The notes beneath the pieces were generated by a model that was not told where the DNA came from, did not search any database, and was given only the letters and a program-made list of their open reading frames with translations. The position numbers and the translations under genes are program-made. A stretch of DNA of 31,087 bases from a virus. Location of the stretch: positions 1 to 31,087 of IMG/VR virus record IMGVR_UViG_3300037493_006092; one strand, given 5' to 3'. This document shows, one piece after another, positions 6,139 through 31,087 of this stretch. How positions within the stretch are numbered: the first letter of the stretch is position 1; each line of letters begins with the position of its first letter.

Positions 6139-6147
6139 TTTATATAG
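6139..6147 (-). promoter_or_regulatory. TATATAAA motif in the sulfotransferase/kinase gap
   Basis: CTATATAAA on the minus strand overlaps the sulfotransferase stop codon and lies 5 bases before the kinase ATG. It belongs to the recurrent TATATAA set, but here the spacing is too short for a normal leader, so it may be only an AT-rich translation leader. Confidence 0.2.
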
Positions 6148-10548: not shown

Positions 10549-10784
10549 AAAATATCTGAAAGCGAAACAGAAAAACCAAATCTTTCTTTAAACTTGTTAG
10601 AATCAATCAATGAATGATCTGCACTCATAAGTTCTCCGTTCTCAACAATCACGTGAAACAAATCCAACCATCCTGATTTCATAATTGTTACGTGCATAGG
10701 AGTTTCATCAGTGAAAATAATCTGACCCAATCCATTTGAATCCAAACATAGATTCATGTTATCTTTCGTCTCTAAACTAATCAT
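10545..10784 (-). CDS. Hypothetical protein, 79 aa
   Basis: I do not recognise this small protein. It is mixed alpha/beta in composition, with Met- and Asp-rich stretches (LETKDNMNLCLDSNG, PMHVTIMKSGWLDLFHV) and no membrane segment or Cys pair. Both ends overlap neighbours by 4 bases (ATGA), which supports it as a real, coupled gene at the head of the nucleotide/sugar operon. Confidence 0.6.
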   Translation of the reverse strand: MISLETKDNMNLCLDSNGLGQIIFTDETPMHVTIMKSGWLDLFHVIVENGELMSADHSLIDSNKFKERFGFSVSLSDIL

Positions 10785-11026
10785 TCTTTAACCTCGTTAA
10801 GTAAGGTTTCTGTAGAAAAATTACGCTTTAAGCAGGTCAGCACATCTTCTGAAGTGGCAAGCATTTCTGCAAATTTGGCAGCTTCATCCATAAGCTGTGG
10901 ATGTTCTCCAATACCAACTGAGTTCGTAAGATAAACTGAAAGACCGTGCAATGCTTCTAAACGCTTTGCATTGTATTTTGCCATTAAAGCGTCATACATT
11001 AAATTTGATGTGCTAATTTCTGCCAT
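10781..11026 (-). CDS. Hypothetical protein, 81 aa, first gene of the nucleotide/sugar operon
   Basis: This small, mostly helical protein (NLMYDALMAKYNAKRLEALH, then QLMDEAAKFAEMLATSEDVL) has no motif I can name. The style fits the short conserved helical proteins often seen in T4-like phages. It is the first gene after the collagen block, with a 46-base AT-rich gap upstream and a 4-base overlap with the next gene, so it probably marks the start of the operon that ends with dCMP hydroxymethylase or the ATP-grasp pair. Confidence 0.62.
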   Translation of the reverse strand: MAEISTSNLMYDALMAKYNAKRLEALHGLSVYLTNSVGIGEHPQLMDEAAKFAEMLATSEDVLTCLKRNFSTETLLNEVKE

Positions 11027-11072: not shown

Positions 11073-14000
11073 TTAATACCACTTTAATGTGGCATCACCG
11101 GCTTGGTGTCCCCAGAAAAGATCCGCCGCTGCTCCTGGAGAGTTTTCAAAGGCGTGAGAGACACTCGCTCCATTTCCGGTTGAGGGTGCATTACCGGTAG
11201 GACCTTGCGGGCCCCTCGGGCCCTGCGTACCGCGTGGGCCTGGGTTGGTGGCGGGTCCCTGATGACCAGTAACAGGTGGACCCTGTGGACCAGTAACTCC
11301 TCTAGGACCAAGTAAACCGATAGGCCCAATATAACCCGGGTTACCTGTACTAAATGGTCCTACAAATCCCTGAGGTCCACCAGTACCTTGAGAACCCTGG
11401 GGTCCGACACCAACACCCCCAGGAGGACCTTGAGGACCTTGTGGATTGGTAGAAACAGCACCCTGTGGACCCCTTGGACCCTGGGGGCCCTGATCCGGGA
11501 AAACATTTCCGGTCGGTCCCTGAAATCCCTGTGGACCTCGAGGACCCGCTGGACCCTGTGGTCCAATATCACCAGTAGGGGCGGTTCCTATTGGTCCCTG
11601 GTGACCCTGTGGACCCCTTGGACCCTGTGGACCCCTTGGTGCGGTTGCTTGAATGATTCCCTGTGGACCTGTCGGACCTGCGGGTTGAGGACCCTTAAGA
11701 CCTTGGTGTCCAAGAGGTCCCTGTAGACCTTGATAACCACCCGTCGGGGCGTCATCTCCGGGGTTAACCAATCCACCCTGATTACCAGTAGGACCTACCG
11801 CTCCCTGTGGACCTCTTGGGCCCTCAGGTTCAGGGCCCTTAATACCTTGGTATCCTCTAACACCCTGTGCTCCTCTTAGACCCTGATCCCCTGGAGGACC
11901 CGCTGGGCTCTGTGCTCCTCGTATTCCAATTGGACCTACATATCCAGCTGGACCCTGGTGTCCCCTTGGGCCGTCAGGCGCCAGCAGATTTCCAGTTGGT
12001 CCCTGGAATCCTTGCGGACCATTTGGACCCTGTGGACCGATCGGACCTTGCGGACCCTGTGGGTTGGGTGTGATAGGACCCTGATTACCTCTGAATCCTT
12101 GTGTACCTCTAGGACCCTGCGGTCCCAGCGCGCTTGGAAAACCCTGAGGACCTCTTGGACCCTCTGGTCTTGGACCGATAGGTCCCTGGTCTCCACGAGG
12201 ACCCCTTGGACCATCAAGCAGTGGACTGTTAGTACCTGCACCTTGGTCTCCTCGGTTACCAACCGGGCCCTGAGGACCCTGTATTCCCGCAGGGGATGCT
12301 ACTACACTACCTTGTGGTCCTTGAGGACCCTGTCCTCCTCTAGCCCCCTGGTCTCCACGGGGACCTGCGGGTCCTTGGTCACCTTGAACACCCTGAAATC
12401 CATCAAATCCCTGTGGTCCAATTGGACCCTGTGCTCCACCTGCATAAACTATTCCTGTGCCAGGAAGAACCAGACCACCTTGTGGTCCTTTAAATCCTTG
12501 GTGACCCTGCAATCCAAGATAACCCTGAGGACCCTGATAACCTTGTGAACCAACATCTCCCTGGTCTCCTCTAGTTGCGCTGCCGCCTTGACCTCCTTGG
12601 AAACCCTGGTTTCCTTGTGTACCTTGAAAACCTCTAAGATCGGCCTGTAAACCTTGATAACCCAGAAGACCTTGGTATCCCTGCGGACCAAACGGACCAA
12701 TAGGACCTTGAGGTCCTCCAAATACTTCATCTGCAATTTCATCGTACCATCCACCCTGGTGTCCTCTTGGGCCCTGAGGTCCCAATGCGCTTGGGTTTCC
12801 CTGGGGTCCTTTGAAACCTTGTGGTCCTTGGATACCTGCACCCTGTTTACCCTGGAATCCCTGATCCCCCCCGGGACCCTGTTGTCCCTGATCCCCTCTG
12901 GGCCCAAGTACTCCCTGTGGACCTTGGTATCCTGGATCTGAAGGTAGTGGTAATCCCTGAGGACCTTGAGGTCCCTGTATACCGCGATATCCCCGTGGGC
13001 CGATGTAACCCTGGTCTCCACGATTTCCTAAATCGCTTGGAATTCCCTGGTATCCTTGAAATCCTTGGAAACCCTGATCACCTCTGAATCCTTGATCACC
13101 AAGCAGTCCCTGAAAACCTCTAAGACCCTGTGCACCTTGAGTGCCTGGGTGTCCTTGAATACCCTGGCTTCCACGATAACCTTGGGGTCCTTCTTGACCC
13201 TGTATTCCTCTGAATCCTTGAGGACCTTGATCTCCTCTGTAACCCTGAAAACCTCGAAAACCCTGGCCTCCAAAACTAGTTTGATCACCTTGGTAACCCT
13301 GTGGACCTATACCCTGTGGGCCAAAAACACCTTGATCCCCAAGTGGACCCTGAGGACCAGTAAACCCTCTAGCTTCTCCAATTGCGCCTTGGTGTCCTCT
13401 GTAACCCTGATCTCCAAAATCTCCCTGGTTACCTTGGAAACCCTGTGGACCTTGATAACCTCCTCTTGCGACATCGCCTGACGGAGCGTCAACCCAACCT
13501 CCTTGATTTCCTCGAGGTCCCTGGTTTCCTAAGTGTCCCTGATCTCCTCTGTAACCCTGATCTCCACGGTTTCCTTTTGGGCCCTGCGGACCAAGATAAG
13601 TGGGATTACCTTTTCCTAACAGACCTTGGTAACCCTGATCTCCCTGGAATCCTGGATAACCCTGCGGTCCCTCTTTACCCTGGTCTCCTCTAAATCCTTG
13701 AGGTCCATACCAACCTGATACCTGTAAAGGTGGATCCGGGACTGGAAGTGGTTGTATTCCGTAACCCTGGTCTCCGCGGGCACCTTGAAATCCAAAAGTC
13801 GATGGGTGACCCTGCGATCCTCTGTAACCCTGGTCTCCACGATGTCCTTCAACACCCTGTCCTCCTCTTATAGACTGTGCACCTAGGTAACCTTGGGGTC
13901 CTTGATAACCTCTTTCACTGGGATGTCCCTGAAAGCCAAATAGACCCTGCTTCCCCTGGTATCCAAAATCACCCTGAAAACCTCTTTCTCCCTGGTCTCC

Positions 14001-14429
14001 TCTGTAACCCTGAGGTCCCTGGTAACCGAGTGTTCCCTGAAAACCTCTCGGTCCCTGGGTGCCTCTAGCACCCTGTGGACCTTGGTAACCCTGTGGTCCA
14101 CCCTGTCCTTGATATCCTCTAGTGCCCTGGTTTCCAAGATCTCCCTGTGCTCCAAAATAACCCTGATTTCCAACATAACCCTGTTTTCCAGCGGCACCGG
14201 TGGCACCGACCTGACCAGGATCTGCAAAGTTCAATCTAAAACCGGCAACTCCAACATCTTCAACCTTGAGTGACCAGTTTTCGTTTGTTTGTGGATCGCT
14301 TGGATCTGCTACTGGTCTATCAAATGGAAGTCTGTAGCCCTGTGCGCCAGAACCTATCCACACTTCTGGTGCTGCTAAAAAAAGCTTTCCTGATTTAATC
14401 AATATATTAAGTCCTGGTGGCGTTGGCAT
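11073..14429 (-). CDS. Giant collagen-like protein 1 (1118 aa), putative virion fibre
   Basis: A short non-collagen N-terminus (about 1-72, with Trp/Phe-rich segments such as [19 protein letters not shown]) leads into about 1000 residues of Gly-X-Y triplets, ending in a tail of about 30 residues ([19 protein letters not shown], then ATLKWY). The Y position is mostly Gln or Arg; X is Tyr, Phe, Asp, Asn or Pro. The last third is dominated by GPQGPR-type triplets. Interruptions recur ([43 protein letters not shown]). Such sequences form trimeric rods in phage fibres and bacterial surface proteins. No signal peptide is seen, fitting a virion component. Which virion part it belongs to, and whether it trimerises alone, is unknown. 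Confidence 0.85.
12715..12758 (-). repeat. Acidic interruption module, copy in collagen 1
   Basis: This stretch encodes [14 protein letters not shown] (about residues 558-571, the exact middle of collagen 1). A nearly identical DNA copy lies in collagen 3 at 20557-20600; the two 44-base segments differ at only two positions. The segment breaks the Gly-X-Y rhythm and is strongly acidic. Confidence 0.85.
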
Positions 14430-14435
14430 ACTAGT

Positions 14436-14443
14436 TATTTATA
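14436..14443 (-). promoter_or_regulatory. TATAAATA element before collagen 1
   Basis: An exact match to the T4 late promoter core TATAAATA lies on the minus strand in the 21-base gap between collagens 2 and 1. It is only 6 bases before the ATG at 14429, which would leave almost no leader, so promoter function is doubtful. Confidence 0.3.
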
Positions 14444-14450
14444 CAAATTT

Positions 14451-17400
14451 TTATGGTAGTCTCCATGCTGATCTTGAACCCGCAGGGTTTGCTGGGGTAT
14501 ATCTTACATACTGACTTTGGTTTACGTCCCAAGACGGAAGTCCTATAAGTCCTGCGTTGTTTGTTGTTAGATCACCCTGATGTCCAGTTAGACCCTGATA
14601 ACCCTGTGCGCCTGGAGGGCCTAGTGGCGAAGGTGGACCCTGTGAACCGGGTAATCCAGTAGGGCCCTGGCTGCCCTGTGGTCCTCTTGGGCCCTGTGGA
14701 CCTCTTGGACCCTGTGGACCTCTAGGACCTCCTGATGGAGGACCAACCGGACCCTGTGGACCCTGAGGACCTATATATCCTTGGTGACCAGGTTGAATTG
14801 GTCCCTGAAATCCTTGTGGTCCTTGACCGCCAACAGGACCCTGGTGTCCTCTAAATCCCTGGTTACCCTGTGCACCCTGTGGACCAGAAGGACCGATAAA
14901 TCCTAGGTAACCCTGGTCTCCAGTTCCTCCCTGTGGACCCCCTGGACCCTGAGGACCTCTTGCTTCTTGAACTGGTCCAATTGGACCCTGGTGTCCAACA
15001 AAACCTTGGTATCCTTGTACTCCTGTAAATACCGGACCCTGTGGACCCTGAGGACCCTGGTCTCCTTGCGTTCCTTGAGGTCCCTGGGGTCCACGTGGAC
15101 CCAGGAATCCCTGGAAACCTCTAGCACCCTGTGGGCCTGTGGGCTGTGGACCTTGATATCCTCTTGGACCCTGTACACCCTGGTTTCCAATTGGACCCTG
15201 GTAACCCCGATCTCCCTGGAATCCAAAAGGCCCTTGGGGTCCAATTGGACCTATACCCTGGAATCCAGCCGGACCCTGGTCTCCTCTGGTACCTGCTGGA
15301 CCCTGATAACCAGTAGCGCCTTGACCACCCTGTGGACCAGTAGGACCTATTAATCCTTGATCTCCCTGAGTGCCCTGCGGACCAACCGGTCCTTGATTGC
15401 CCTGAGCACCTCTTGTTGCGTTGAGAGGACCTTGATACCCTTGATCGCCTTGGAAACCTACAGATCCTTGGTCACCTCGTGTCTGTCCACCTTGATAACC
15501 CAACAGTCCTTGACCACCCTGTGTTCCCTGTGGTCCTTGGAAACCCTGATTTCCGGGCGGACCTTGGATCCCCTGAGGGCCCTGGTACCCAGTCGGCTGT
15601 GGACCCTGATTACCCCTTGGGCCTTGGCTACCTCTAGCGCCCTGAGGACCTTGGTGACCCTGTAGACCTTGCCAGCCGGCAGCACCCTGGTATCCTTGAG
15701 GTCCAAATCCCTGTGCTCCAACTGCTCCAGTAAATCCCTGAATTCCTCTTGGACCCTGTATACCCTGGACTCCCTGATCGCCTTGGTCTCCTCTGATGCC
15801 CTGATTTCCTAGGTATGCTCCGCCTTGTAATCCACTAGGTCCTTGGAAACCTTGACCGCCTTGATAACCGAAATTACCCTGATCTCCTCTTGGGCCCTGT
15901 GGGCCAGGAACTCCACCGGTATAACCCTGTGGACCAAATGGACCCTGGTAACCCTGATCTCCTCTAGTGCCCTGGTGACCCTGCGGTCCAAGCGGACCCT
16001 GTTGCCCTAGGTCACCCTGGAATCCTCTCGGCCCCTGTTCACCTATCACATCATCTCCTTGGTCTCCTCTGATACCCTGGTTACCTCTATCACCCTGTGG
16101 ACCTTGGTAACCTCTTACCCCTTGGTAACCCTGTAGACCGATATATCCTTGGTATCCAATAACAATTGGACCCTGTAATCCTCTTGGACCCTGAGGTCCC
16201 TGTGCGTCCTGCGCCCCTTGGAAACCCAATAGACCCTCGTAGCCCTGATCTCCTCTTGGACCCTGAGGTCCTTGATAGGCTTCACCTATAACTCCAGCAT
16301 CAGCACCTTGTATTCCTCTGTTTCCCTGATCTCCAAGATAACCCTGTAAACCGCGATAGCCCTGGACACCTCTGTATCCCTGAAGACCCTGAAACCCTTG
16401 TGTTCCAGGCCCCTGATCTCCTCGATAACCCTGATCTCCAATATAACCCTGTGGACCTACATATCCCTGGTCTCCTCTTGTATTTGATTGGTAACCTTGG
16501 TCTCCTCGGTATCCTTGGTCTCCTCGGTAACCCTGGGGTCCCTGGTCTCCTCGGAAACCATCTTCTCCCTTAGGACCAATAAAACCAGTATCTCCTTGGT
16601 AACCCTGGTCTCCGCGAGGACCCTGAAATCCTTGGATTCCAAAAACTCCTTGGTAACCTTGAGGACCCTGGTAACCTCTTGAGTTATCGATACCCTGTTT
16701 TCCTTGGTAACCTCTTTCGCCCTGCGGTCCTTGAAAACCTAGAGGTCCAAAATATCCTCCGTATGCTGTAGGTCCAAGTGTAAGACCACCCTGGAAACCT
16801 CTGTCTCCCTGGAAACCTCGGTCTCCCTGAACACCTCTTTCACCCTGGGATCCCTGTTGACCCCGGTTTCCCTGGTGTCCGCGAAGTTCTGGGTATTCAA
16901 AACCGAGACCTTGATATCCTCTTGGTCCCTGGTAACCCAAAAGCCCCTGGAATCCTCGAGAACCCTGATCTCCCTGGAATCCTTGAGGACCTTGGTAACC
17001 CTGTCCACCCTGGTATCCATCAAACCCTTGGTATCCCTGAGCGCCTTGGTGGCCCTGAAAGCCCTGTGGTCCTTGGTAACCCTGTGGTCCCTTGTCTCCT
17101 TGGTACCCTGTCACTGAGATTCCTTGGTAACCTCTGTCGCCCTGCGGTCCGGGGTATACACTATCATCTCCTTGATAACCTCTTAACCCTTGGTAACCGG
17201 TAAGTCCTTGGTTTCCTCTGTAGCCCTGCGCTCCTAGATAACCCTGTAAACCTTGGTATCCAACGTCTCCTTGATTTCCAAGAAAACCCTGAGGACCTCT
17301 TGCACCCTGGTATCCCTGTGCACCAAGATATCCCTGCGGTCCTTGGTAACCTTCGCCGGCGCCTTGAACTCCTCTGTTGCCCTGAACTCCAAAAACGCCC

Positions 17401-17648
17401 TGAACTCCGCTTAAGTCTTCAAAGTAAACAGTGCCCTCGTTCTTTCCAGCATATAAACTTTCCGAAGGATTAATAACAAGAGTAGTACCATCCGCGGGAC
17501 CAGTCGCTCCGGTAGATCCTGCTAAAACAAAAACACCAGCTTGAAAACTGGGATTAGCGGTTATAAACGCCTCTCCACCTCCCACTGCGGGAGTTGGATC
17601 AACCTTAAGATATGGTGTTCTAATTATATGTCTGCCGTTGCCTGCCAT
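14451..17648 (-). CDS. Giant collagen-like protein 2 (1065 aa), putative virion fibre
   Basis: The N-terminus (about 1-80, [19 protein letters not shown], then [18 protein letters not shown]) is followed by about 940 residues of Gly-X-Y and a C-terminal cap of about 35 residues ([17 protein letters not shown], ending AWRLP). The first half is exceptionally rich in GYQG, GFQG and GDQGYRG triplets, and the last third in [10 protein letters not shown]. The C-cap shares a [YW]DVN[NQ][AS]Q pattern with collagen 3. It is separated from collagen 3 by 15 bases and from collagen 1 by 21, so the three are probably cotranscribed. Like its paralogues it has no Cys-rich knot. A fibre or whisker role is inferred from composition and its place beside tail genes. 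Confidence 0.85.
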
Positions 17649-17663
17649 TTATATATGTATCTT

Positions 17664-20600
17664 TTATCCCAACCATGTAATTGTACTGTTTCCTGAAGAA
17701 TGGAATATGAGTTGTGCGTTGTTGACATCGTAGTCAGGGAATCCTCTTACATTATCGAAAAGAGTAGTGTACGAGTAACTTGTAGATGCAGGTCCTTGAA
17801 ATCCAGTAGGCCCAGGAGGTCCCGCTACATCAACACCTTGTGGTCCAAGACCGATGTTACCCTGGAATCCTTGATAACCAGTAACTCCTTGATAACCCTG
17901 GAATCCTTGATAGCCCTGTACTCCCCCAGGGGCTCCAAATAATGGCCCCTGGTGTCCTTGAGGACCGTTTGGGCCGCGGGGTCCCGGCGCAACTGGACCT
18001 GTGAATCCCTGGTCTCCGGTTGGACCTGTGGTTGGACTAGGGAATCCTTGCGGTCCCTGTACTCCAATATATCCTGGATAGTTTGGACCCATAGATCCCT
18101 GTTTACCGCGCGGGCCCTGCGCTGCAGTTCCATATCCCTGTGGACCTTGATGACCCTGAGCTCCTGTGATTGGACCAAGCGGACCCTGTAGACCGAAAGG
18201 TCCAATAAATCCAGTAGGACCTGGTGATTGTGGACCTATAAACCCTTGTGGACCCTGGAAACCTACAGTAGAAGAAATAGGTCCCTGATAGCCCTGAGGA
18301 CCTCTATCCCCTTGATAACCCTGAAGACCAAGAGGACCTTGCGGACCTTGTCCTCCTGCATATCCCTGTGGTCCAATATAACCGGTTGGTCCAATTGGAC
18401 CTACGTACCCCTGTGGACCCAATTCCGTAACGGGGTTGGGAGATACACCTTGATAGCCCTGTGGGCCCTGCGCCCCTGGAGTAGTGCTGGCGGCGGCTTG
18501 GTATCCCTGTGTACCCTGGTCTCCTCTTGGACCCTGATCCCCTTGGTAACCTGTGTAGTTTGGTCCCATTGACCCCTGTCTACCACGTGGGCCCTGTACT
18601 CCAGATGCTGGTCCTTGAAATCCCTGATAACCAAGTGTTCCGTCTATTGGTCCAGCTGGACCTTGATCACCTGTAAAAGTACCACTAATCTGACCAGATG
18701 GACCCTGGTATCCTGTTAAGTCGTTAGGTCCCTGGTATCCCCTTGATCCCTGGGGTCCAACGCTTGCAGCGATATCTCCCTGATAGCCAACAAGACCCTG
18801 CGGGCCAATGAAACCAATATTTCCAAGCGGACCCTGAGGACCTTGACCACCGGTGTATCCTTGAGCTCCATCATAACCTGTTAAAGGTATTGGAGAAGGA
18901 TTTCCGGGTGGACCCGGTGTAGTGCTTGGAGTGCCCTGGATCCCAACATAGCCTTGAGCACCAGGGCCCTCCTGTGGAGTTCCAAGATTTCCTTGATAAC
19001 CTCTAACCCCAGGGGTTCCTTGAAACCCGGGTTGCCCGAGGAACCCCTGTGGGCCTTGATAACCCTGTACTCCTCTAGCTCCTTGAAAACCAAGTTGACC
19101 CTGATAACCTCTAACGGAACTCGCGTAACCCTGTGGACCCTGGAATCCGATAGGACCGTCAGGACCCTGTGGACCAACTGGACCCTGGAATCCTCTAGGA
19201 CCCTGCAATCCTTGGAAACCCAGTGGACCCTGGAAACCTCTGACAGTGCCAATAGGCCCTTGATAGCCCTGGTTTCCTAAAAATCCCTGAGGACCCTGTA
19301 AACCCGTGTTTGTGGCGGGGCCTTGGAAACCCTGCGGTCCTTGCCATCCCTGCGGTCCCTCAGGACTTGGGAAACCAGTTACGCCTTGTATGCCTCTTGG
19401 GCCCTGGGGACCAATTGCAGCGTCAGCACCTACATCATCCGCCTTTGGACCTTGAAATCCCTGGTTTCCTTGATGTCCTCTTAACCCCTCAGGCGAGTCA
19501 TGTCCTTTTGCGCCAGTAATTCCTTGATAACCCTGGAAGCCTCTCTCTCCCTGTGTACCCTGTGGACCCTGTGGACCCTGTGGACCTTGGAATCCCTGTG
19601 TTCCTCTGTAACCCTGTATCCCATTGTAACCCTGTAATCCTCGGTAACCCTGGTCACCTTGATAACCCCGTGGTCCTATAAAAGCCGGTGTTTCTCCATC
19701 GGGACCCTGATATCCAAGAAATCCTTGTGGACCCTGGTTTCCTCTTACAGTTGAAGTATCGCCTTGGTGTCCTTGCACTCCTCTGGGGCCCTGGTAACCC
19801 TGATCTCCCCTGTAACCCTGATCGCCTACGTTTGCTTCAAACCCCTCGGGACCCTGGTCTCCAAGGGGGCCGGCCTTACCCTGTGGTCCGAGAAAGCCTT
19901 CGTGTCCTTGTAATCCTTGGTAACCCTGGTGACCCTGTGGACCTTGGAATCCCTGGTTTCCTTGATGTCCAAGCAGACCCTGTGGACCCTGCAGACCCTG
20001 ATAACCTCTAGTGCCCTGGTCTCCGAGAGGTCCCTGTGGTCCCTGGGGTCCTTGACTTCCTTGGTAACCGAAAAGACCCTGGTAGCCGAGATCTCCCTGG
20101 TAACCTTGAGTACCTTGATAACCTAAAAACGGTAATGGACCTTGATATCCTCTTTCGCCCTGTGTACCTTGGTAGCCACGTAGATCGCCGTCGTATCCCT
20201 GTTTTCCTTGGTAACCCTGTGGACCCTGTAGTCCAAGCAAACCAATATATCCTTTGTAACCCTGCGGTCCTCTAACCTCGTTTGTGTTGCCCTGGATTCC
20301 AAGAAATCCCTGATCTCCAAAGAATCCCTGATCTGCAGTTAAACCCTGATCCCCCTGGTCTCCACGAGCGCCTTGGGCTCCAAATTTTCCTTGGTAACCC
20401 TGAGGTCCTCTTTCACCATCTGCCCCTTGGCGGCCTCGAACCCCCTGGTCTCCTCGAGTTTCTGGGTAATTAGCACCAAGTCCTTGGTATCCAAGTTGTC
20501 CCTGTGATCCAAAATCTCCCTGAAATCCTCTTACAGTGCTAGCAGGTCCCTGATATCCTCCAAATACTTCATCTGCAATTTCATCGTAATATCCACCCTG

Positions 20601-20888
20601 AAACCCGCGCTCTCCTATCAAGCCCTGGGCTCCAAAAGAACCCTGAGCGCCCTTTGTTCCTTGAATACCTTGGTATCCTAAAGCGCCTTGGTATCCTAAA
20701 GAACCCTGAGCGCCCTGGGGACCAATCTGAGAATCAAAGAATATTTCACCAGTAGAAGCGTTGTATCTAAGATACTGTCCTTGAGTTCCCACGTGCTGTG
20801 GAAAGATGAACCTATCAAAGAAGTTCACCTGCCCAATCTCACCTAAAAATATAGAATCAGCGTTTTTAATTATATGCTGATCAGGCAT
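17664..20888 (-). CDS. Giant collagen-like protein 3 (1074 aa), putative virion fibre
   Basis: An N-terminal head of about 57 residues ([20 protein letters not shown], then [18 protein letters not shown]) resembles the short anchoring heads of phage fibre proteins. It is followed by about 975 residues of Gly-X-Y and a tail with [19 protein letters not shown] ending in TITWLG. It shares the acidic interruption [14 protein letters not shown] (residues about 97-110) with collagen 1. Breaks such as STVRG, GFEANVG and [15 protein letters not shown] recur at irregular spacing. It is the first of the three collagen genes in transcription order, 26 bases after the DEDDh exonuclease stop, and a TATATAAA element overlaps that stop. 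The role is inferred. Confidence 0.85.
20557..20600 (-). repeat. Acidic interruption module, copy in collagen 3
   Basis: This is the second copy of the 44-base module described at 12715-12758, here encoding [14 protein letters not shown] near the N-terminus of collagen 3. Near-identity in DNA between genes that otherwise differ in triplet order points to recent exchange or strong constraint. Confidence 0.85.
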
Positions 20889-20913: not shown

Positions 20914-20922
20914 TTTATATAT
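20914..20922 (-). promoter_or_regulatory. Candidate late promoter upstream of the collagen genes
   Basis: ATATATAAA on the minus strand, 25 bases before the collagen 3 ATG and overlapping the exonuclease stop codon. The spacing suits a -10-like late promoter with a short A-rich leader. Confidence 0.4.
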
Positions 20923-21676
20923 TTGATTTTAGTTTGTTAAGTATCTTCCCGGTGATAATTTTTGTCTCAGAAGTAAATCCACTCGCGCCTTGAAGCCACT
21001 CAAAGTATCTAGGATCTGATTTATAAACGTCTTTAACATTTTTACCAAAATGTTTTCCAAAGTTAACTGTGATTTCTCCGTTCTTTAATTTATACTTACC
21101 TGCTAAATCAACGATTTCATTTCGATGCGCTGTAATTTGTTCCAACTCATCAATTGTGTCGGGAATATCATAAAGAGAAAGCTGCGATTTCACAACCTCA
21201 ATAGCTGCTAGAACATCAGCTTCTGCAGTGTGTGCATTCTCTAATTTTTTCCCTGTATATTTTTTGTATACGCTTTCAAGCGTAGATGGTTCGTAATGTT
21301 TAAGTATCGCATAACCATCAAGAATCCTGTGCTTTCTGTGATTGAAAGGTATACCGGCTCTATAAAATTCTTCTGTTAACAGAGGAAGATCAAAACCTAA
21401 AATATTGTATCCACCAAGATCACATTCACCGATGAATTCAAGAACCTCAATTGCAACATCTGCAAAAGACGGTTCACCTATTAAGTCAGACTCACCTATA
21501 CCGTGCTTTTCAGTGGCCTCTGGTGATATTGCTACGCCTACGCTATTTAGTCTATAGTAAAGCTTTTCCGTTGTGTCTCGATCAATCTTTACTGCACAGA
21601 ACTCAATAATTCTATCTTCTGATATGTTTAATCCGGTTGTTTCCAAATCGAAAAAAACGATGGGCTTTTCAAACAT
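20915..21676 (-). CDS. DEDDh 3'-5' exonuclease (DnaQ-like) with ExoX-like C-terminal domain
   Basis: The 253-residue protein has the three exonuclease motifs in order: VFFDLETTGL (Exo I, 7-16), GGYNILGFDLPLL (Exo II) and AHTAEADVLAAIE (Exo III with the His of DEDDh). The C-terminal part (VNFGKHFGKNVKDVY, then DPRYFEWLQGAS) matches the small FGK...G...DPxYxxW domain found after DnaQ folds in ExoX-type proteins. It should degrade DNA or RNA ends 3' to 5' with two metal ions. Its place among structural genes is unusual for a replication enzyme. It could serve proofreading, repair or host nucleic acid breakdown. The ATG at 21676 is preceded by GTATATAAAGAAG. Confidence 0.9.
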   Translation of the reverse strand: MFEKPIVFFDLETTGLNISEDRIIEFCAVKIDRDTTEKLYYRLNSVGVAISPEATEKHGIGESDLIGEPSFADVAIEVLEFIGECDLGGYNILGFDLPLLTEEFYRAGIPFNHRKHRILDGYAILKHYEPSTLESVYKKYTGKKLENAHTAEADVLAAIEVVKSQLSLYDIPDTIDELEQITAHRNEIVDLAGKYKLKNGEITVNFGKHFGKNVKDVYKSDPRYFEWLQGASGFTSETKIITGKILNKLKSNI

Positions 21677-21712: not shown

Positions 21713-24043
21713 TTAAGAAGAAGCGAGCAACTTTCCACCCGTAGCATCTCTAAGTTCTAAACGAACTCCACCGACTGCTTGCGCTATGTTTCCTGGAAGA
21801 TTATTAATTGCAGCAGTAAGACGTGCCATGTCAGCAGAATTGGTTGGTTTTCCCTCGACAACCTTTTCATCCCCGCCACCGGTGATTTTATTGGCAATAC
21901 CTCCAGCAAAAGTTAATGCTTTATCCACCGTATCACTGGCAAAATTTATAACTTTATTAAATCCACTGTTTTTGTCCGCTAACTCGTTGATTTCACTCAG
22001 AACATCATAAACTTTTTGTGACTTTTCAATCTGAATACTATTAATACCAGCAGAAAATGTTTGCATTGAAGTGGCGATTGATTGGAAAGAGAGCGCCATT
22101 TGCTGGAGCGGATTCTTGTATTTAATCAAAGTAGCTAACTGTTTATTCATTTTTTGAATAGATCCGGCAAAAAGAGTTGGAATCGCGTAATCTTCATATC
22201 CGCTTGGGAAGAATTTATCCAATGCTATATAAAAAGCACTTAATCCCTGCATATCGGTTATTGCGTTGATTTTTCTCAGCGCAGAGTTTATATTGTCAAT
22301 TCCTTTACCAGTTTCTTGTATAGCGTTCACTCTATCAGAAAGAGATAATACTATCTCCTCTGGAGTCATAGCCGGTGCTGTGCCCGAAATAAAAGAGATA
22401 AGAGCACCGGCCGCATTGAATACACTGCTCACTGCGCCACCTAAAGACGCCCCAAGCGTTGCAGCAGCTATTGCAGCTAAACCACCAGCCACAGCTAATA
22501 ATCCTCCTCCAAGAGCAACAAGATTACCTGCACCGATATTGGCCATTTTTTCGATGAAATCACCTAATGAATTAATTACAACACTAATGTTTGAAATAGC
22601 AGAGACTATAATATTTCCAATCATTTCAAATGCAGATTGGAAAATTGGTACAAAGGCTTGTACCACCTCAGCAATACCTGAAAAAATTACCTTTAATGGA
22701 TCAGCTACTTTCGTTATTAAATCACCTATAAACGGTCCAAGCTCTCGTATTACCTCTTTGAAAATCGGCAATCCTTTTTCAAGAAGATACAAGAAAACAT
22801 CTACAATTCTCATTCCAAAATAAGACAAAGCATCTGCCACATTATACAGCAAACCTCCAGGTTTAAACATTCCCTCTGGCAACAGTTGTAAAACATACGC
22901 CAAACCAACCACCGCTAAACCAGCAACTACAAGCCCGGCTGCTCCCAAGAGAAATCCTTGAATAGTAACGGCTCTTACAATTGCTCCAATAATACCAATC
23001 GTAAGAGCAAATGGTATCATACCTATACCAACACTGAACATCCAACCAAGGTCGGGTGCTTTGTATTCTTCTGGAAGCATTTGGAATATATATGCTACTC
23101 CAAGAATTGTCGCTGCTATTGCAATACCAGCCAGAGAAGCAAAAAGAATATCCTTTGGTCCAAGATTAAATTTATCAATCGTTGCTGCTGCCAAAACAAA
23201 CGGTAAACTAAACACAAGAATTGATAAACCAACCTTGAGTGACCAGATTGGATCTGGCGCCTTGTACTCATCAGGAAGAAGTGAAAAGGCATACGCAGCA
23301 CCAACAAGTCCAAGCGCAATCAATGGGATTGATGCTGCAGTAAGTGCAAGTTGTTTTATGTTTTCAAGTTTCTTTGACGCAACTAGAGCAAAAGGAATTG
23401 CAAAAAGCGCAAGAGCTAGCCCGGCTTTAAGAGTCCAAATTGGATCGGGTGCCATGCTTGGAGTCAATGTTGGCATCAAAGAAAGTATCAATGCACTTCC
23501 AACTATTCCAAGCGCAACCAATGGAAGGGCCACAGCAGCCCTTCGAATCTGCTTTTCATCCAAATCTTTCATTTTTTCAGCAGCATATGCAAATGCAGGA
23601 ACAATTATTCCTAGTGCAAGGGAAATGGCAATAACTCCAACTGGATTTAAAACAAATGCAGATGCAATACCAATTGCAATACCAAACGCACCGATTGCTG
23701 CTGCCATCAATAAAACATTTTTGGCAGTTGTTCCTAAACCAGCAGCAACGTTCTGTAATTTTTCAGCAGCTCCTGTTCTCTGAGTAGAAACTCCCTTTGA
23801 AACAGCATCTAGCTTTGCATTGCTTAAAACTATGTTTGCTTCAATTCTTTTTAGAACTGCAGTCTGTTTCTCGGTTTCAACAATTAGCTTTTCTAAATTT
23901 CTAACCGTTGAAACAACTCCACCCGTAATAACTTCAATTGCCTGTGTATTGTTCGCTGCAAGCGCTTCGATTTTAGCCATCGAAGACAAAAGACCCTCTT
24001 GAAGTTGAATGGATCTTGATTCAAACCCTTGTTTAAATGCCAA
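21713..24043 (-). CDS. Tape-measure-like tail protein with hydrophobic repeats
   Basis: The 776-residue protein has a helical, coiled-coil-like N-terminus (1-90), then a long hydrophobic region (about 100-425), then Ala/Gly-rich and helical segments. Position after the gp26-like and chaperone-like genes, large size and hydrophobic centre all fit a tape measure, which sets tail length and sits in the tail lumen, the role of gp29 in T4. Residues about 165-425 hold four repeats of 64-67 residues, each with a LP-E/D-EYKAPD-type turn (near 200, 264, 331 and 395) between hydrophobic helices. The start codon is TTG at 24043-24041; the next Met is residue 22. The TTG fits the 28-base gap and an A-rich leader. 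Direct homology to gp29 is not shown. Confidence 0.7.
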   Translation of the reverse strand: MAFKQGFESRSIQLQEGLLSSMAKIEALAANNTQAIEVITGGVVSTVRNLEKLIVETEKQTAVLKRIEANIVLSNAKLDAVSKGVSTQRTGAAEKLQNVAAGLGTTAKNVLLMAAAIGAFGIAIGIASAFVLNPVGVIAISLALGIIVPAFAYAAEKMKDLDEKQIRRAAVALPLVALGIVGSALILSLMPTLTPSMAPDPIWTLKAGLALALFAIPFALVASKKLENIKQLALTAASIPLIALGLVGAAYAFSLLPDEYKAPDPIWSLKVGLSILVFSLPFVLAAATIDKFNLGPKDILFASLAGIAIAATILGVAYIFQMLPEEYKAPDLGWMFSVGIGMIPFALTIGIIGAIVRAVTIQGFLLGAAGLVVAGLAVVGLAYVLQLLPEGMFKPGGLLYNVADALSYFGMRIVDVFLYLLEKGLPIFKEVIRELGPFIGDLITKVADPLKVIFSGIAEVVQAFVPIFQSAFEMIGNIIVSAISNISVVINSLGDFIEKMANIGAGNLVALGGGLLAVAGGLAAIAAATLGASLGGAVSSVFNAAGALISFISGTAPAMTPEEIVLSLSDRVNAIQETGKGIDNINSALRKINAITDMQGLSAFYIALDKFFPSGYEDYAIPTLFAGSIQKMNKQLATLIKYKNPLQQMALSFQSIATSMQTFSAGINSIQIEKSQKVYDVLSEINELADKNSGFNKVINFASDTVDKALTFAGGIANKITGGGDEKVVEGKPTNSADMARLTAAINNLPGNIAQAVGGVRLELRDATGGKLLASS

Positions 24044-24266: not shown

Positions 24267-24326
24267 GTTTTCAATCTCACTAGGCTGTAACCTTAAATGA
24301 TAGTAAAGAGCAACCTTTGCCTTAAA
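24072..24326 (-). other. Possible programmed +1 frameshift extension, joining gp26-like and chaperone-like frames
   Basis: The gp26-like frame ends GAG CTT CTT TAA G. A +1 slip of the tRNA from CTT to TTT over the TAA stop would enter AAG GCA AAG GTT and read straight into the downstream ORF. The CTT-stop arrangement is like the +1 site of bacterial prfB (CTT TGA). A -2 slip would give the same frame. No strong upstream Shine-Dalgarno-like stimulator is visible, only GACGAG. Confidence 0.5.
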
Positions 24327-25275
24327 GAAGCTCGTCAGAGATATTTGAAATAACGAAGAAAGATTTGACGCCTCCGGGAAATGTTATCGGGAAGGTGGCC
24401 TCCTGACCACACTTTCCACAAGAGAGTGAAAACTCGGGTTTAACACCCACTTTAATCATTTCTGCAAGTCTAAACACCGTTGTATACTTAATGCCTGACC
24501 AACCGTTAAATTCTATCTCCTTTTGCTTTAGTGTATGTTCATTGAAACTTCTCCAATCTCTAACAAGATATGGAATAGTTTGTGCAAATGCTTTGTCCCA
24601 CTTCTCCTTTGCCTGCTCTCTCTTTTTAATGTAATCAGTAATAACTCTCATTACACCAATCGTGGGAGGTGCCATGTAGAATGTACCAGAAGATTTGGTT
24701 TCAATTACATACGAACGGTGTTCATCACTGTAGTATTTAGATACGGTTTCGTCCTCTTGGTGATACTGAAGATTTGTAGTTTTAAACTCGTATTTATCAC
24801 CAATCTCACAATCAGGTTGACTGCATTTGCTTGGAACATCCATCATAATTTTATTCTCACCGTTTTTAAAGGTAAGTTCTTTGATAGAAAGAACCACAAA
24901 AAGTCGATCCTCTTCCAAGATATCTTTGTATGAACCAGGAGCAGAAACATAAGAAACCCGCGCACAAGAAATAAGAATCTTGTTAATTTTTTCATCAACA
25001 TCTAAAAGATTGGTCTCATCCATGGTTGAGAAATCTCTAATCTCAGAAACCTTAGCAGGTCTAATCAGGATTTTCATATCGGATCTGTAAAAACGTCCCC
25101 TTGACGGTAAGTTTTCCATAACGAGTTCGAGGTGGCCTGTCATCTCTTTAATCCTTTTAATATCAGGATCTTCAGATGGGTTATCGTTTACTCGAACCTT
25201 ACCGAGAGAAGAAGTAATATTTTCTTGCTCCTCAAACTCTCTTTTTAGTGCTTCTTCGTGAGAAATCTCATCCAT
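24322..25275 (-). CDS. 26: T4 gp26-like baseplate hub / tail-assembly protein
   Basis: The 317-residue protein has the core I associate with the T4 baseplate (gp26) family: LVMENLPSRGRFY (51-63), MKILIRPAKVSEIRDFS, DVDEKINKILISC (92-104), then a long helical part and a C-terminal metal-binding look. Two Cys pairs, CSQPDC (151-156) and CGKC (286-289), could form a four-Cys zinc site. In T4, gp26 is needed for hub assembly and acts near gp51 and the tape measure, the same order seen here. The start overlaps the stop of the 77-residue gene by 8 bases. The end carries the possible +1 frameshift site. The family call is moderate; the protein is longer than T4 gp26 (208). Confidence 0.65.
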   Translation of the reverse strand: MDEISHEEALKREFEEQENITSSLGKVRVNDNPSEDPDIKRIKEMTGHLELVMENLPSRGRFYRSDMKILIRPAKVSEIRDFSTMDETNLLDVDEKINKILISCARVSYVSAPGSYKDILEEDRLFVVLSIKELTFKNGENKIMMDVPSKCSQPDCEIGDKYEFKTTNLQYHQEDETVSKYYSDEHRSYVIETKSSGTFYMAPPTIGVMRVITDYIKKREQAKEKWDKAFAQTIPYLVRDWRSFNEHTLKQKEIEFNGWSGIKYTTVFRLAEMIKVGVKPEFSLSCGKCGQEATFPITFPGGVKSFFVISNISDELL

Positions 25276-25584: not shown

Positions 25585-26139
25585 TTAACCTCCAACGTTT
25601 TCTTCTAACCAGTAATCTGATCTCAAAGTTATTCCAACAATACCGGCGTCTTGTGTTGCATAATCCAAATCGTTGATGAATGTGATTTGAGCAGTTGGAA
25701 AAACATCTTTAAATGTAACTCTTCTAAAGATATCACCGGCTCTGTTATACTGAACAACAACCATTGATCCAACATAATCTCTCTTCAATCCCATTTCTCC
25801 AGTTAGTGGATCATAAACAAGATTATACCAATTTCTCATTGCATTATAAATGTATGCTTCGTTAGCATCATTTAAGTTCACAGAGAACTCGAGAGTTAGA
25901 TCAACGAAGGTTTGAGCTGGCATTCCAGCATATGATCTATCTGAGAACTTATACTTTTGTCCAACAGCTTCAATAGATGGATTAACTCCGTCTAAACCTC
26001 CAATTTTATTAACATGTTGTAAAATCAAACCCGTGTCTGCATTCGTTGGAGTAAGTATTGTTACCTCAAAAAGATTGGGGTAAATTGGTTCATACTTATT
26101 CAAAGATGCCTTTGACTGTGTATAATGTGGTAGTGGCAT
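25585..26139 (-). CDS. 19: Tail tube protein (gp19-like)
   Basis: The 184-residue protein follows the T4 tube pattern: NLFEVTILTP, YAGMPAQTFVDLTLEFSVN, AYIYNAMRNWYNLVYDPLTG (93-112), GDIFRRVTFKDVFPTAQ and a last strand VGITLRSDYW. Tube subunits stack in hexameric rings inside the sheath and channel DNA. The length is close to T4 gp19 (163). It directly follows the sheath gene, the conserved 18-19 order, with GATATATAAA in the 25-base gap and an A-rich leader. The stop is followed by a strong terminator. Confidence 0.92.
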   Translation of the reverse strand: MPLPHYTQSKASLNKYEPIYPNLFEVTILTPTNADTGLILQHVNKIGGLDGVNPSIEAVGQKYKFSDRSYAGMPAQTFVDLTLEFSVNLNDANEAYIYNAMRNWYNLVYDPLTGEMGLKRDYVGSMVVVQYNRAGDIFRRVTFKDVFPTAQITFINDLDYATQDAGIVGITLRSDYWLEENVGG

Positions 26140-26164: not shown

Positions 26165-29100
26165 TTACACAAACTGTCCAGTTGAAATCTGACCGGTTCT
26201 TAGGATAGTTGTTCTGTGAACAAGAATTTCCATGCCTTTTACTGGTTCGATGTAAGTATCGAGAATACCAACGTTTGCATCAATAACATCAGGAGTGTTG
26301 TTCGTTTCGTCCATGATGTTTCTAAAATCATAAACACCATTTTCTGCTAAAACAGTAGTCATAAAGTTATCAGCAAGCGTCTTAATCTCTAGTCTGGTTT
26401 GTGCAGTATTAAATTCGAACAAGTAATTTTTGAGAATAGCTGCAATACCGTCTTGAATGTAAATTACAACCTCTCTAACGTTTATACTAGAAAGAGCACT
26501 CTTTACATTCTGTTGAGCTGTTTTGTTTCCAAAGATCACAATCCCAGAACCCGTTTGGAAGATGATTGGGTTCAGCCCGAATGGTTCAATATTGTCTCTA
26601 TCGGTTGTAGTGAAGTTGTACTCCAGTCCAACAATTCCTCTACCTGATACAACACCTCTTCTGGCTCCTGCAACAATTGACCATGGAGTTGCGTCGATAT
26701 ACTTAGCGATAAAGTCATTAGAAACTGCAGCAGCCGGTGGTACATTTACGTTAACTCCATTATCTCTTACAGTTAAGAATGGAGAGTAGAATGCCATATA
26801 GTTCGATCCATCGGTGATTGAAGGAAGCGAGTATCTAACAGTAGGATTCTTACTAAGATCTCCTCCAGTAGGAATGAAACGAGTATCAAACTGTCCTTGT
26901 ACATTTTTAAATGAGGGATCAGTGCTGTCCTTAAAGTCTTGAACAGAAGGCGCATTTACGATTGCAAATGCATTTTGACGATTCTTCGCAATCTTACCGA
27001 AGATTGACTTGGAATTTGCCTCTAATCCATTACCAAAAGTGTCAACCAAATATCTGAATGAAATAACATCTCTATCGATTAATGCATAATAAAGATTTGT
27101 TCCGCTTAGGGTATCAAATAAGATATTGTTTTGCTGAGAGTTTGTGCCATCAGGAACATTGTAAGAACCTAACGCAAACCCTGGAAGAGCAAACGCTTGG
27201 TAGCAATCAAACCAATTAGTGATTGGCTGATAAACTTCAACATTTTTATTTGCACCTACGGTGAAAAGATAAACAGTGCTCTCACACACAACTTTAATGT
27301 AATCTCCAGCGGTAGAAGAACCTGCAGGAACATAATTGCTCAATCCAATAACCTCGTTAATACGAGTTAATCTAGAAGGAACTCCATTTGCAGTACTACC
27401 TGGGTTGTTTACTATGTAGTAACCAACTTCAAAATCTCCAGCAGATGCGGCGGCGAGTATAACCTCATTTGGATTAAGTGAAGATCCGGGTTTACCGTAA
27501 TACTCTGCAGCTTGAACTGAAGTATTTAAAGAACCCTTAAGAGATTGTACTCCAAGAGTACCTGCGGCCTCTTGAACACCGGTGCTATCGAAGAAGAATT
27601 TTCCTGCAACATTAATTCCAAAATCAGAATCAGTTGAGATTGCAGTTCCGGTAAAGTTCGCGGTATCAAATGCATTTATTGAGATTACAGGAACTGGATA
27701 TGAAGTTGCATTGTTAATTAACGTCACCAAATCAGTGGATCCATCGTTTGAATAGATTTCAGTGTCAGTAGCAACGTTGAAATCAAGATAAATTGTATCT
27801 GCAACACCATATGTTGTACCAAACTGTGCAATGTCTCCATCGGTTAATACTCCAGAAGTTACATCCGAATAAAGAGTTGATGAGTAACCTCCAAGAATTG
27901 TTCCAACGTTACCATCCTTTTGAACAAAATAGTTAATAGAAGTTGGATTCAAATATGGAAGAGAGGTTGAGAACCATGTGTCATTAATAGAAGTAGAATC
28001 AACAATAACAGTTGCTGTTGCCGAGGTTATTGCTACTTCGATAACAGGGGCCCAGTATGCATTACCTCCGCTTTCGGCGTAAACATAAGTACCTATCGTT
28101 CTAGGATTATCAACATTTGCCGTAAAAGATGCTAAAGCGTTGTAAGCTGCAAGGTTAGTTGTTTTAGTTGCAACAATTTCGATTTCGTTTCCAGTGAGAG
28201 ATGTAACTGTTACTCCAGAGGCAATTGAAACTGTTGAATGAACAGGTATTGATTCTGAGTAAGATAAATCAGAAACAATATTACCATTGTAAGAAAGAAA
28301 ATCTACGGTAGTTGGACGAGTTCTTTCGAGTTCGTGACCAACCAAATCGATACCTCCGTCAACACCATCAATAAGCTCGCCCAAACCAAAGGCTGAGGTG
28401 TTAACAGCACAGAAAAGTCCGGTTACTGAAGTGTCTTGGTTAATAAGAGTTTCAATGAATAGATTATTTCCGTTCAAATCAGTAAAGTCAGGAAGCAATG
28501 AACCTGTGTAAATAGCGATCTCATTTACCTCAGGAAGATTTAAGAAAGCTTGAAGTTGAGTGTCTTGAGTGTCAGCAGAATTTGCCTTTCTGATCAAACC
28601 ATTTTGCTTATCGAAATAAGGTTCGTAAATAGCATCTGCGGTAAATCTCTCATATGGATAAGCAGCAGATGAATCAGCTCCGTAATCCCCTTGAATTACG
28701 ATCACATCAATCATAAAGTCAGAAATTAAAGAGTCCTTGTTCAAATAATCAGGTACATTTGAAGTACCGTAGAAAGTTTCAGCCGTGATATTTAACCCGG
28801 GAACGTTTTCGTTTGCAGCCTTTCTAACAACAACAGTAATAGGTGTTCTTCCAAGGTTTACAAGATTGAAAAGCTTGTCAATTGAGTTTTCAGTGTAGTT
28901 AACATTTGATAAGAATGCTTCTGTTTCAGGAAAGAAAAAAGCATCAGTATTATAATACCCAGAGTATAACTCATTTGCAAACCCTTCATTTGGCTCTGTG
29001 GCGCTTGCTGAGAAAATATATGCTTTGTCTTTGTCTCCGGTGGTAGCATCATTATTGAGTCTTAAAAGGTTAAGAGCCAAGATTGGCCCACTCTCAAGAG

Positions 29101-29344
29101 CAGTTAAACAACTTCTTTGGAAGTAAGAGTCCTTTCTTTCTAGTTTTCTATCGATATTTCCAAATACTGAAACGAAAAAGCCAGAGTCAGGACAGTATAC
29201 TGGAGTGTTAAATGGGCCTTGGTTAGAAAAACCAACAACCAATCTAATTTGTTCAGCAGGAATACTTACTGTTTGGCTTTTATCAAACTCAAGTCTGTAT
29301 ACTCCAGCAGACTTAAAAGCTGCAATTTTAGGATCTAATGCCAT
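26165..29344 (-). CDS. 18: Contractile tail sheath protein (gp18-like) with large central insertion
   Basis: The 1059-residue protein has recognisable sheath ends. The N-terminus (AGVYRLEFDKSQTVSIP, then VVGFSNQGPFNTPV) is the domain that threads between subunits. The C-terminus has INVREVVIYIQDGIAAILKN, FEFNTAQTRLEIK, GVYDFRNIMDETNNTPDVID (1001-1020) and EPVKGMEILVHRTT, close to T4 gp18. T4 gp18 is 659 residues, so about 400 residues extra sit in the centre, rich in Ser, Thr, Val and Gly, probably surface beta domains that decorate the tail. The sheath contracts to drive the tube into the host. An A-rich leader and a TATATAA element precede the ATG. Confidence 0.93.
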   Translation of the reverse strand: MALDPKIAAFKSAGVYRLEFDKSQTVSIPAEQIRLVVGFSNQGPFNTPVYCPDSGFFVSVFGNIDRKLERKDSYFQRSCLTALESGPILALNLLRLNNDATTGDKDKAYIFSASATEPNEGFANELYSGYYNTDAFFFPETEAFLSNVNYTENSIDKLFNLVNLGRTPITVVVRKAANENVPGLNITAETFYGTSNVPDYLNKDSLISDFMIDVIVIQGDYGADSSAAYPYERFTADAIYEPYFDKQNGLIRKANSADTQDTQLQAFLNLPEVNEIAIYTGSLLPDFTDLNGNNLFIETLINQDTSVTGLFCAVNTSAFGLGELIDGVDGGIDLVGHELERTRPTTVDFLSYNGNIVSDLSYSESIPVHSTVSIASGVTVTSLTGNEIEIVATKTTNLAAYNALASFTANVDNPRTIGTYVYAESGGNAYWAPVIEVAITSATATVIVDSTSINDTWFSTSLPYLNPTSINYFVQKDGNVGTILGGYSSTLYSDVTSGVLTDGDIAQFGTTYGVADTIYLDFNVATDTEIYSNDGSTDLVTLINNATSYPVPVISINAFDTANFTGTAISTDSDFGINVAGKFFFDSTGVQEAAGTLGVQSLKGSLNTSVQAAEYYGKPGSSLNPNEVILAAASAGDFEVGYYIVNNPGSTANGVPSRLTRINEVIGLSNYVPAGSSTAGDYIKVVCESTVYLFTVGANKNVEVYQPITNWFDCYQAFALPGFALGSYNVPDGTNSQQNNILFDTLSGTNLYYALIDRDVISFRYLVDTFGNGLEANSKSIFGKIAKNRQNAFAIVNAPSVQDFKDSTDPSFKNVQGQFDTRFIPTGGDLSKNPTVRYSLPSITDGSNYMAFYSPFLTVRDNGVNVNVPPAAAVSNDFIAKYIDATPWSIVAGARRGVVSGRGIVGLEYNFTTTDRDNIEPFGLNPIIFQTGSGIVIFGNKTAQQNVKSALSSINVREVVIYIQDGIAAILKNYLFEFNTAQTRLEIKTLADNFMTTVLAENGVYDFRNIMDETNNTPDVIDANVGILDTYIEPVKGMEILVHRTTILRTGQISTGQFV

Positions 29345-29396: not shown

Positions 29397-31087
29397 TTAA
29401 ACTAGATCGTAAATGTCAAAATAAAGGCTACCGCCCTTAGAATCTTTGTCGAGAATAGTTTCAATTTCATCCTGAAATTTAGCATCCACACTATCAAATT
29501 TCTCCTCAACAAAATCAGAAAAATCCAACGTGTGAAAAAACTCAGTTACATTTATGCACGTCATGATAAGATCATCATTTCCCATTTGGCCTTCATAGTT
29601 TCCACTTGGAGTTTTGCCAAAAGTACATGCCTCGTACACTGTATTTTCTTCGGCTATTTTAATTTTATTTATCGATAAATATTTTTTAAAGTTTTGACAG
29701 AATATGGCCTTGTTATCTCGCTTCAACTTTAAACCGAATTTTGAGGTTTTTGCGTCATTTCTATGTTTAAACTTTACCACAGATTCTTCGTCAAACTCGT
29801 TTCGCTGTGGGAAAATGGTTTGTAATCTTCTTATAAATTCAGATCCAAACATGTTCCATTCAATCACAAGTTTTACGTTTTCTGCTTCAAAAATTTCATA
29901 GTTGAGAGTGTAAATAATTTTAGCAAAATCTTCGATGGAATGGGTGTTACTTCTAAAAAGACCTAATTGTGACAATCCATAAAATTCAATAAATGAACCA
30001 GGGGATGTGACTTTTTCAAAATCACTGCGGCTCATCATATCAATTTCAAAAATATTACAAACTGAATAGTCTCCTCCATTACCCTCTGCAATATCAATTG
30101 AAAAAACATAGTACCTGTCTTCATCTTTTAAAGAGTCTATATCAACATCTGGATGCCAGATTAAACCTTTGTAATCTACATCAACATCATCTAAATCATA
30201 AAAATCATGATATTCAAAAGTCTTCTTACTCTTTTGAATATTTTTAATGTTGTGTGGAGAAAGCAAAAGATTTGAAGATGCTACAAACTGGTTACCGTAT
30301 TGTCTGTTAAAGGCTTCTTCGGATCCCAAGTTTGAAACTTCACGCTTCATCCATTCTTCGTCTCGCCCAGGAACCTGCCACCAGTCTACTCTAAATGGCC
30401 TATACTCATTGTTTCCAGCACTAGCATCTCTCCAAATGTTATAGAACTTATTAAATCCGTTTGGTGTTGAAGTTATAATTACCCTTGATATCTTTGAAGA
30501 TGAAATTGTAGGATAAACGTTTTCATAAAAAGTATCCAAAAACGAGTGGTGAATGTGGGCAAACTCGTCCATAAATAAGAGGTGAATGGTAAAACCAATG
30601 GCCGCCTTTTTAGAAGTTGCCTGTCCTACAATTCTACATCCATTATCAAACTTTCTGTTAAAAACATCGTTCTTTAAAACACCAGGTTTCATAAACCATG
30701 GTAAGTGATCAATAATCACGTTTGCCTTATCCAAAATTTCTCTCGTTGTTGCTCCTTTGTTTGAAAGAACCAGAGCATTTTTATCGAAGTTAAACGTGAC
30801 ATACCAAGCGAGAAAGATAGATGAACAAATTGTTTTACCAATCTGTCTACTTGCCAAACACACAGAAAAACGACTATTTTGAAAATGTTGAAGCATTTCC
30901 TCTTGATAGTCACGAAGAACGATTGTTTGCAAACCTTCGTCTGTCATTACAGTACAATAGTTATTTGCAAAGTACATGATATCCTGAGAGCATTTTTTTA
31001 GCTCACCTAATTCATGTTCGGTGTATTCCCAAACTATGTTACCCTTTTTTAGATCGGGATTGTTCTCATAGAAAGGAGTTCCTGTCT
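29397..31087 (-). CDS. 17: Terminase large subunit (gp17-like), 5' end outside window
   Basis: The frame is open to the right edge: the first 36 codons before the Met at 30977-30975 encode a segment (EYTEHELGELKKCSQDI) that lines up with T4 gp17 before DIVYFA, so that Met is internal. Numbered from it, the ATPase has SRQIGKT (43-49, Walker A) and LLFMDE (133-138, Walker B). The nuclease has FSIDIAEGNGGDYS, VIEWNMFG and the closing MGNDDLIMT, matching the three acidic metal positions of gp17. The protein packages DNA into the prohead and cuts it at the end. The order 17-18-19 is as in T4. Only the extreme N-terminus is missing. Confidence 0.96.
   Translation of the reverse strand, partial: TGTPFYENNPDLKKGNIVWEYTEHELGELKKCSQDIMYFANNYCTVMTDEGLQTIVLRDYQEEMLQHFQNSRFSVCLASRQIGKTICSSIFLAWYVTFNFDKNALVLSNKGATTREILDKANVIIDHLPWFMKPGVLKNDVFNRKFDNGCRIVGQATSKKAAIGFTIHLLFMDEFAHIHHSFLDTFYENVYPTISSSKISRVIITSTPNGFNKFYNIWRDASAGNNEYRPFRVDWWQVPGRDEEWMKREVSNLGSEEAFNRQYGNQFVASSNLLLSPHNIKNIQKSKKTFEYHDFYDLDDVDVDYKGLIWHPDVDIDSLKDEDRYYVFSIDIAEGNGGDYSVCNIFEIDMMSRSDFEKVTSPGSFIEFYGLSQLGLFRSNTHSIEDFAKIIYTLNYEIFEAENVKLVIEWNMFGSEFIRRLQTIFPQRNEFDEESVVKFKHRNDAKTSKFGLKLKRDNKAIFCQNFKKYLSINKIKIAEENTVYEACTFGKTPSGNYEGQMGNDDLIMTCINVTEFFHTLDFSDFVEEKFDSVDAKFQDEIETILDKDSKGGSLYFDIYDLV

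Follow-up and report, generated by a model that had tools for sequence, protein, structure and literature searches.

Three tandem collagen-like genes (c1, c2, and c3) in the window analyzed here, an entire virus record of 31,087 bases, probably encode three separate homotrimeric, kinked collagen-type virion fibers of ≈240 to 290 nm on a large T4-like myovirus, a reading to which we assign a probability of roughly 0.58. The gene content (terminase, sheath, tube, hub, and tape-measure-like protein) identifies the window, as judged from sequence, as a metagenomic fragment of such a phage, uncultured and infecting bacteria. In the proposed structure, each gene supplies one chain that would self-trimerize into its own triple-helical rod, which starts with a small head that is not collagenous and ends in a tail of just 37 to 40 residues. 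The segmented rods would be kinked or flexible, and the fibers would serve as long tail fibers or whiskers that reach out to host surface structures, presumably in adsorption. The genes lie head-to-tail on the minus strand in the order of transcription c1, c2, c3, with gaps of 26 bp (exonuclease–c1), 15 bp (c1–c2), and 21 bp (c2–c3). The initial annotation of three tandem collagen-like genes of 1074, 1065, and 1118 residues proves exact in coordinates, strand, and lengths. The principal features are as follows.

29397..31085, minus strand: T4-type terminase large subunit, running off the window end
26165..29344, minus strand: tail sheath protein, the query for finding relatives
25585..26139, minus strand: tail tube protein
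24322..25275, minus strand: baseplate-hub-like protein (phrog_150)
21713..24043, minus strand: 776-aa tape-measure-like protein, assigned from position and hydrophobic stretches
20915..21676, minus strand: exonuclease (RNase_T), a conserved neighbor at the end of the syntenic tail block
17664..20888, minus strand: c1, 1074 aa, 275 triplets, 34 interruptions
20724..20888, minus strand: c1 non-collagenous head, residues 1-55, without detectable relative
17787..20723, minus strand: c1 interrupted Gly-X-Y domain, residues 56-1034
20544..20600, minus strand: 57-bp block in c1, residues 97-115, holding an 11-residue interruption and 89% identical to the c3 block
17667..17786, minus strand: c1 short tail, residues 1035-1074, resembling the c2 tail
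14451..17648, minus strand: c2, 1065 aa, 293 triplets, 25 interruptions in the main domain
17409..17648, minus strand: c2 head, residues 1-80, without relatives
14568..17408, minus strand: c2 interrupted Gly-X-Y domain, residues 81-1027
15243..15695, minus strand: c2 151-residue repeat unit, copy A, residues 652-802
14790..15242, minus strand: c2 151-residue repeat unit, copy B, residues 803-953
14454..14567, minus strand: c2 short tail, residues 1028-1065
11073..14429, minus strand: c3, 1118 aa, 281 triplets, 33 interruptions
14217..14429, minus strand: c3 head, residues 1-71
11187..14216, minus strand: c3 interrupted Gly-X-Y domain, residues 72-1081
12702..12758, minus strand: 57-bp block in c3, residues 558-576, partner of the c1 block at a nonequivalent position
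11076..11186, minus strand: c3 short tail, residues 1082-1118

The collagen assignment is carried by matches of c1, c2, and c3 to PF01391 (Collagen) with E-values of 4e-88 to 4e-102 and scores of 289 to 334, against a curated cut-off of 27.2. We counted triplets in perfect Gly-X-Y runs of at least three triplets; the resulting 275, 293, and 281 replace an earlier figure of about 330 each, which treats the interrupted span as continuous. These contents are far beyond shuffled expectation, as composition-preserving shuffles reach a maximum of 84, 95, and 96 triplets in c1, c2, and c3, with a longest run of 10 to 13 versus 32, 23, and 33 in the actual chains. The description of the proteins as nearly all Gly-X-Y holds insofar as 77%, 83%, and 75% of the residues lie inside perfect runs, but it passes over the 25 to 34 interruptions in each rod, most of which place three to seven residues between glycines in place of the normal two. 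Each chain is thereby divided into 27 to 35 runs with a mean of only 8 to 11 triplets (24–33 residues), many comprising only 3 to 6 triplets; whole-chain periodicity of the interruptions is not significant in c1, c2, or c3. The X position is occupied by Pro (27–32%) and aromatic residues (20–29%), and the Y position by Gln (50–58%), with Pro at merely 2 to 4%. Aromatic X residues avoid adjacent triplets in all three chains, and a preference for every second triplet is clear in c1 and c2 only. The G+C content is 50 to 57% across most of the collagen genes versus about 36% around them. This does not signal a foreign origin, a possibility that we rejected, since the GC3 of 0.30 to 0.34 equals that of neighboring genes and amino acid composition accounts for the difference. 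The same GC3 values, together with mixed GGA/GGT Gly codons, point to selection on the protein sequence rather than to repetitive DNA or a foreign segment acquired recently.

At 0.286 nm per residue, the helical runs alone give rods of 236 to 251 nm and the whole span about 270 to 290 nm, so that the roughly 280 nm proposed initially is reasonable. With runs averaging 8 to 11 triplets, such rods should be kinked or flexible. Tape-measure proteins correspond to tail length at 0.15 nm per residue, and the 776-residue tape-measure-like protein thus implies a tail of about 116 nm, which the fibers would outreach at about twice its length. Triple-helix formation by c1 to c3 is what we infer from these patterns; its stability is not assured, given the many runs of 3 to 6 triplets and the scarcity of Pro at Y.

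The three genes appear to be related through their tails and through shared sequence blocks, which support duplication or exchange among them. The c1 and c2 tails are similar (P about 1e-4) and those of c1 and c3 weakly so (P 0.006), with no similarity found in the pairwise comparison of the c2 and c3 tails; the initial view of similar tails therefore stands for two of the pairs. The heads, also described as similar, show no similarity in a shuffle test (P 0.18–0.47). Gene duplication, as originally suggested, is backed by the similar tails and the exchanged DNA blocks. Within c2, copies A and B of the repeat unit match in run lengths (11, 12, 6, and 18 triplets) and gaps (permutation P 2e-4), with identity at just 38 of 97 non-Gly positions. 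Retention of the glycine lattice and gaps amid so little identity suggests selection on the lattice and on the positions of the breaks. It is conceivable, if improbable, that the interruptions are selected joints, such that three segmented, length-matched fibers with set breaks, and with aromatic/glutamine-rich triplets replacing hydroxyproline, would have controlled flexibility and possibly bundle side by side.

Could the three chains instead join in one rod? The initial annotation raised a heterotrimer with one different chain per strand, as in several animal collagens, and the layout of the locus lends itself to this: the three genes adjoin, separated by gaps of 15 to 26 bp (counting that before c1), are presumably co-transcribed, and have interrupted domains of near-equal span (979, 947, and 1010 residues). 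Collagen-like genes also occur in ordered triplets in Pasteuria ramosa (PMC13233619, PMC10329263), although heterotrimers are not demonstrated there in the accessible text of these sources. The Pcl triplets, three ordered, co-oriented genes with duplication among them according to PMC13233619, belong to a cellular bacterium and not a phage, and are likened to c1 to c3 by description and not by sequence. If chains were paired, interruptions and glycine register should align between them. Over all offsets, the best interruption coincidences for the three chain pairs are 13, 16, and 10 against shuffled means of 11.0, 13.3, and 10.8 (P 0.09, 0.06, and 0.92), and the best common glycine register is 0.47, 0.50, and 0.55 against 0.48, 0.48, and 0.49 (P 0.55, 0.34, and 0.11), both no better than shuffled order in a test run with no natural heterotrimer as positive control. 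The heads are unrelated, and in the 735-kb phage LR756501 the tandem collagen-like ORFs are very unequal, which indicates that tandem order does not imply a heterotrimer. We consider a single heterotrimeric rod very unlikely. Without being proof, the lack of common interruption positions or register fits separate homotrimers, and the two tests argue for these, with the proviso that real heterotrimers can bear some mismatch. Prokaryotic collagen-like proteins are described as homotrimers in a review (PMC8968730), and EPclA of an E. coli prophage assembles into collagen trimers whose ends are globular (PMC3368898).

The ends of the chains give little indication of how the putative homotrimeric fibers attach or bind. 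No relatives were found for any of the three heads in phage records, nor for the c1 and c2 heads, the c1 tail, or the 11-residue interruption common to the c1 and c3 blocks in viral contigs. The c2 and c3 heads, modeled with AlphaFold2 without an alignment, gave low-confidence pLDDT values of 38 and 43 and were set aside; neither these models nor the search for relatives of all three heads identified a known baseplate-attachment or trimerization domain. At the other end, only 37 to 40 residues follow the last run; they match no family and leave too little room for a receptor or chaperone domain of the usual sort, and a C-terminal trimerization, chaperone, or receptor-binding domain of the kind that is common, not universal, in phage collagen-like tail fibers is absent. 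The want of a recognizable baseplate-attachment head or receptor tip suits virion appendages other than tail fibers, for example head fibers or a capsid decoration comparable to the collagen-like gp12 of phage SPP1, which binds the capsid (as cited in PMC13212656). Against such appendages, the collagen genes come after tail genes and not capsid genes, and many of the matched phage collagen-like families carry tail fiber or minor tail annotation, though these matches arise mainly via the Gly-X-Y repeat. We therefore hold a non-tail appendage to be unlikely, with an appreciable chance of being correct.

The genome context was examined through relatives of the sheath, which comprise 80 viral contig loci as well as, among others, phages of Flavobacterium and Tenacibaculum, Prevotella Lak phages, and Sphingomonas phage PAU; no sheath relatives were found in bacterial genomes, nor relatives of the 776-aa protein in viral contigs at the sensitivity used. 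In the window, the collagen genes stand directly behind the terminase–sheath–tube–hub–tape-measure–exonuclease block. The exonuclease is present in 29 of the sheath-relative loci examined, and none of the sampled loci has a collagen gene behind it, which suggests that, within this sample, the collagen genes are an insertion specific to the lineage. Among the relatives whose sheaths are 82 to 91% identical, the contigs L016 and L017 stop short of the collagen genes. In three relatives tested, the genes after the exonuclease slot encode topoisomerase II, so the collagen genes are located beside the tail block in what is no obvious fiber operon. That border with topoisomerase genes, and the sugar and nucleotide metabolism genes that come next in the window, would accommodate proteins made in infection that are not virion parts, such as collagen-like proteins that the infected cell secretes or displays on its surface. 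On inspection by eye, however, the heads show no signal-peptide-like N terminus, and phage collagen-like proteins, where annotated, are often tail proteins; products of this kind are thus highly improbable. The original identification of c1 to c3 as phage fibers is supported by the phage context, and their placement on the virion is the location we favor.

Downstream of the collagen genes lie an 81-aa protein, guanylate kinase, a KDO8P-synthase-like enzyme, and UDP-galactopyranose mutase, as well as a sulfotransferase-family protein, thymidylate kinase and synthase, two RimK-family ligases, and a sigma factor. The 81-aa protein (10781-11026) belongs to phrog_1811 and has >100 relatives in viral contigs; a role as a collagen-specific helper was rejected, as no collagen ORF occurs in the 80 loci of its relatives that were surveyed. 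The sulfotransferase-family protein, the mutase, an unmatched 375-aa protein, and the KDO8P-synthase-like enzyme cluster at 6140-10030, possibly as a sugar-modification set for the host surface or for fiber glycosylation. The RimK-family ligases, of the ATP-grasp type, stand side by side at 2384-4824, and the phage-encoded sigma-70 family factor at 995-1729 has regions 2 and 4. The sole exact T4-late-promoter-like TATAAATA in the window, at 14436-14443, falls in the 21-bp gap before c3, with a number of occurrences at the level of chance (mean 1.44 expected).

We compared c1 to c3 with a small, hand-picked set of known collagen-like proteins, which is not a census of phage collagens. Phage collagen-like tail fiber and minor tail proteins (PF01391; phrog_6320, phrog_5073, phrog_819, and phrog_1806) are alike in their Gly-X-Y domain and Gln-rich Y position, and tandem copies are precedented, with two in Roseobacter phage CRP-114. 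The members compared from annotated isolates have 60 to 137 triplets in 1 to 6 runs, as opposed to 275 to 293 in 27 to 35 short runs in c1 to c3, whose heads and tails, unlike theirs, are without relatives. Closest in composition are two proteins of the T4-like Synechococcus phage S-CRM01 (AEC52967 and AEC52970), with 20% and 17% aromatic X and 61% and 67% Gln at Y, but these have 137 and 60 triplets in 5 and 2 runs and are not three equal-length tandem genes. The uncultured phage LR756501 (sheath 33% identical over 67%) likewise has three neighboring giant collagen-like ORFs, with 859, 547, and 139 triplets in at least 3448, 2830, and 814 residues, the first being a lower bound as that ORF is cut by the end of the stretch (LR756501.1 400000-425000; L122). 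Unlike the equal-length c1 to c3, these ORFs consist mostly of Ser/Thr triplets in unbroken runs of up to 308 triplets, with common heads and larger non-collagen domains. Two sheath relatives of the same phage lineage as the window also carry such genes at other genome positions, each cut by the contig start. The first, on a 160-kb contig (G001; sheath 60% identical), has a giant ORF with 310 triplets that is Pro-free and unbroken and ends in a Peptidase_S74 chaperone domain; the second (G008), a partial ORF, has 122 triplets of the aromatic/Gln type of c1 to c3, with 38% aromatic X. Among solved structures, c1 and c2 match the 780-residue spindlefibril/axialfibril chain of PDB 8zxl (chain X; also 9ius), which repeats GAPGSQGAPGLQ-like triplets.

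The size of c1 to c3 is unusual but not unique, as larger relatives such as those in LR756501 are known. Both size and tandem arrangement are precedented, and c1 to c3 are a striking case of a known kind of viral fiber. What is unusual in their sequences is the dense interruption combined with aromatic/glutamine-rich triplets, of which the aromatic X is common to S-CRM01 and G008. Giant collagen-like genes recur across large T4-like phages at differing genome positions, and c1 to c3 extend the known phage collagens by an extreme group with dense interruptions. As natural sequences of ≈1000 residues with few Y-position prolines, they would provide a test of long triple helices without hydroxyproline and a means to study how interruptions tune stiffness.
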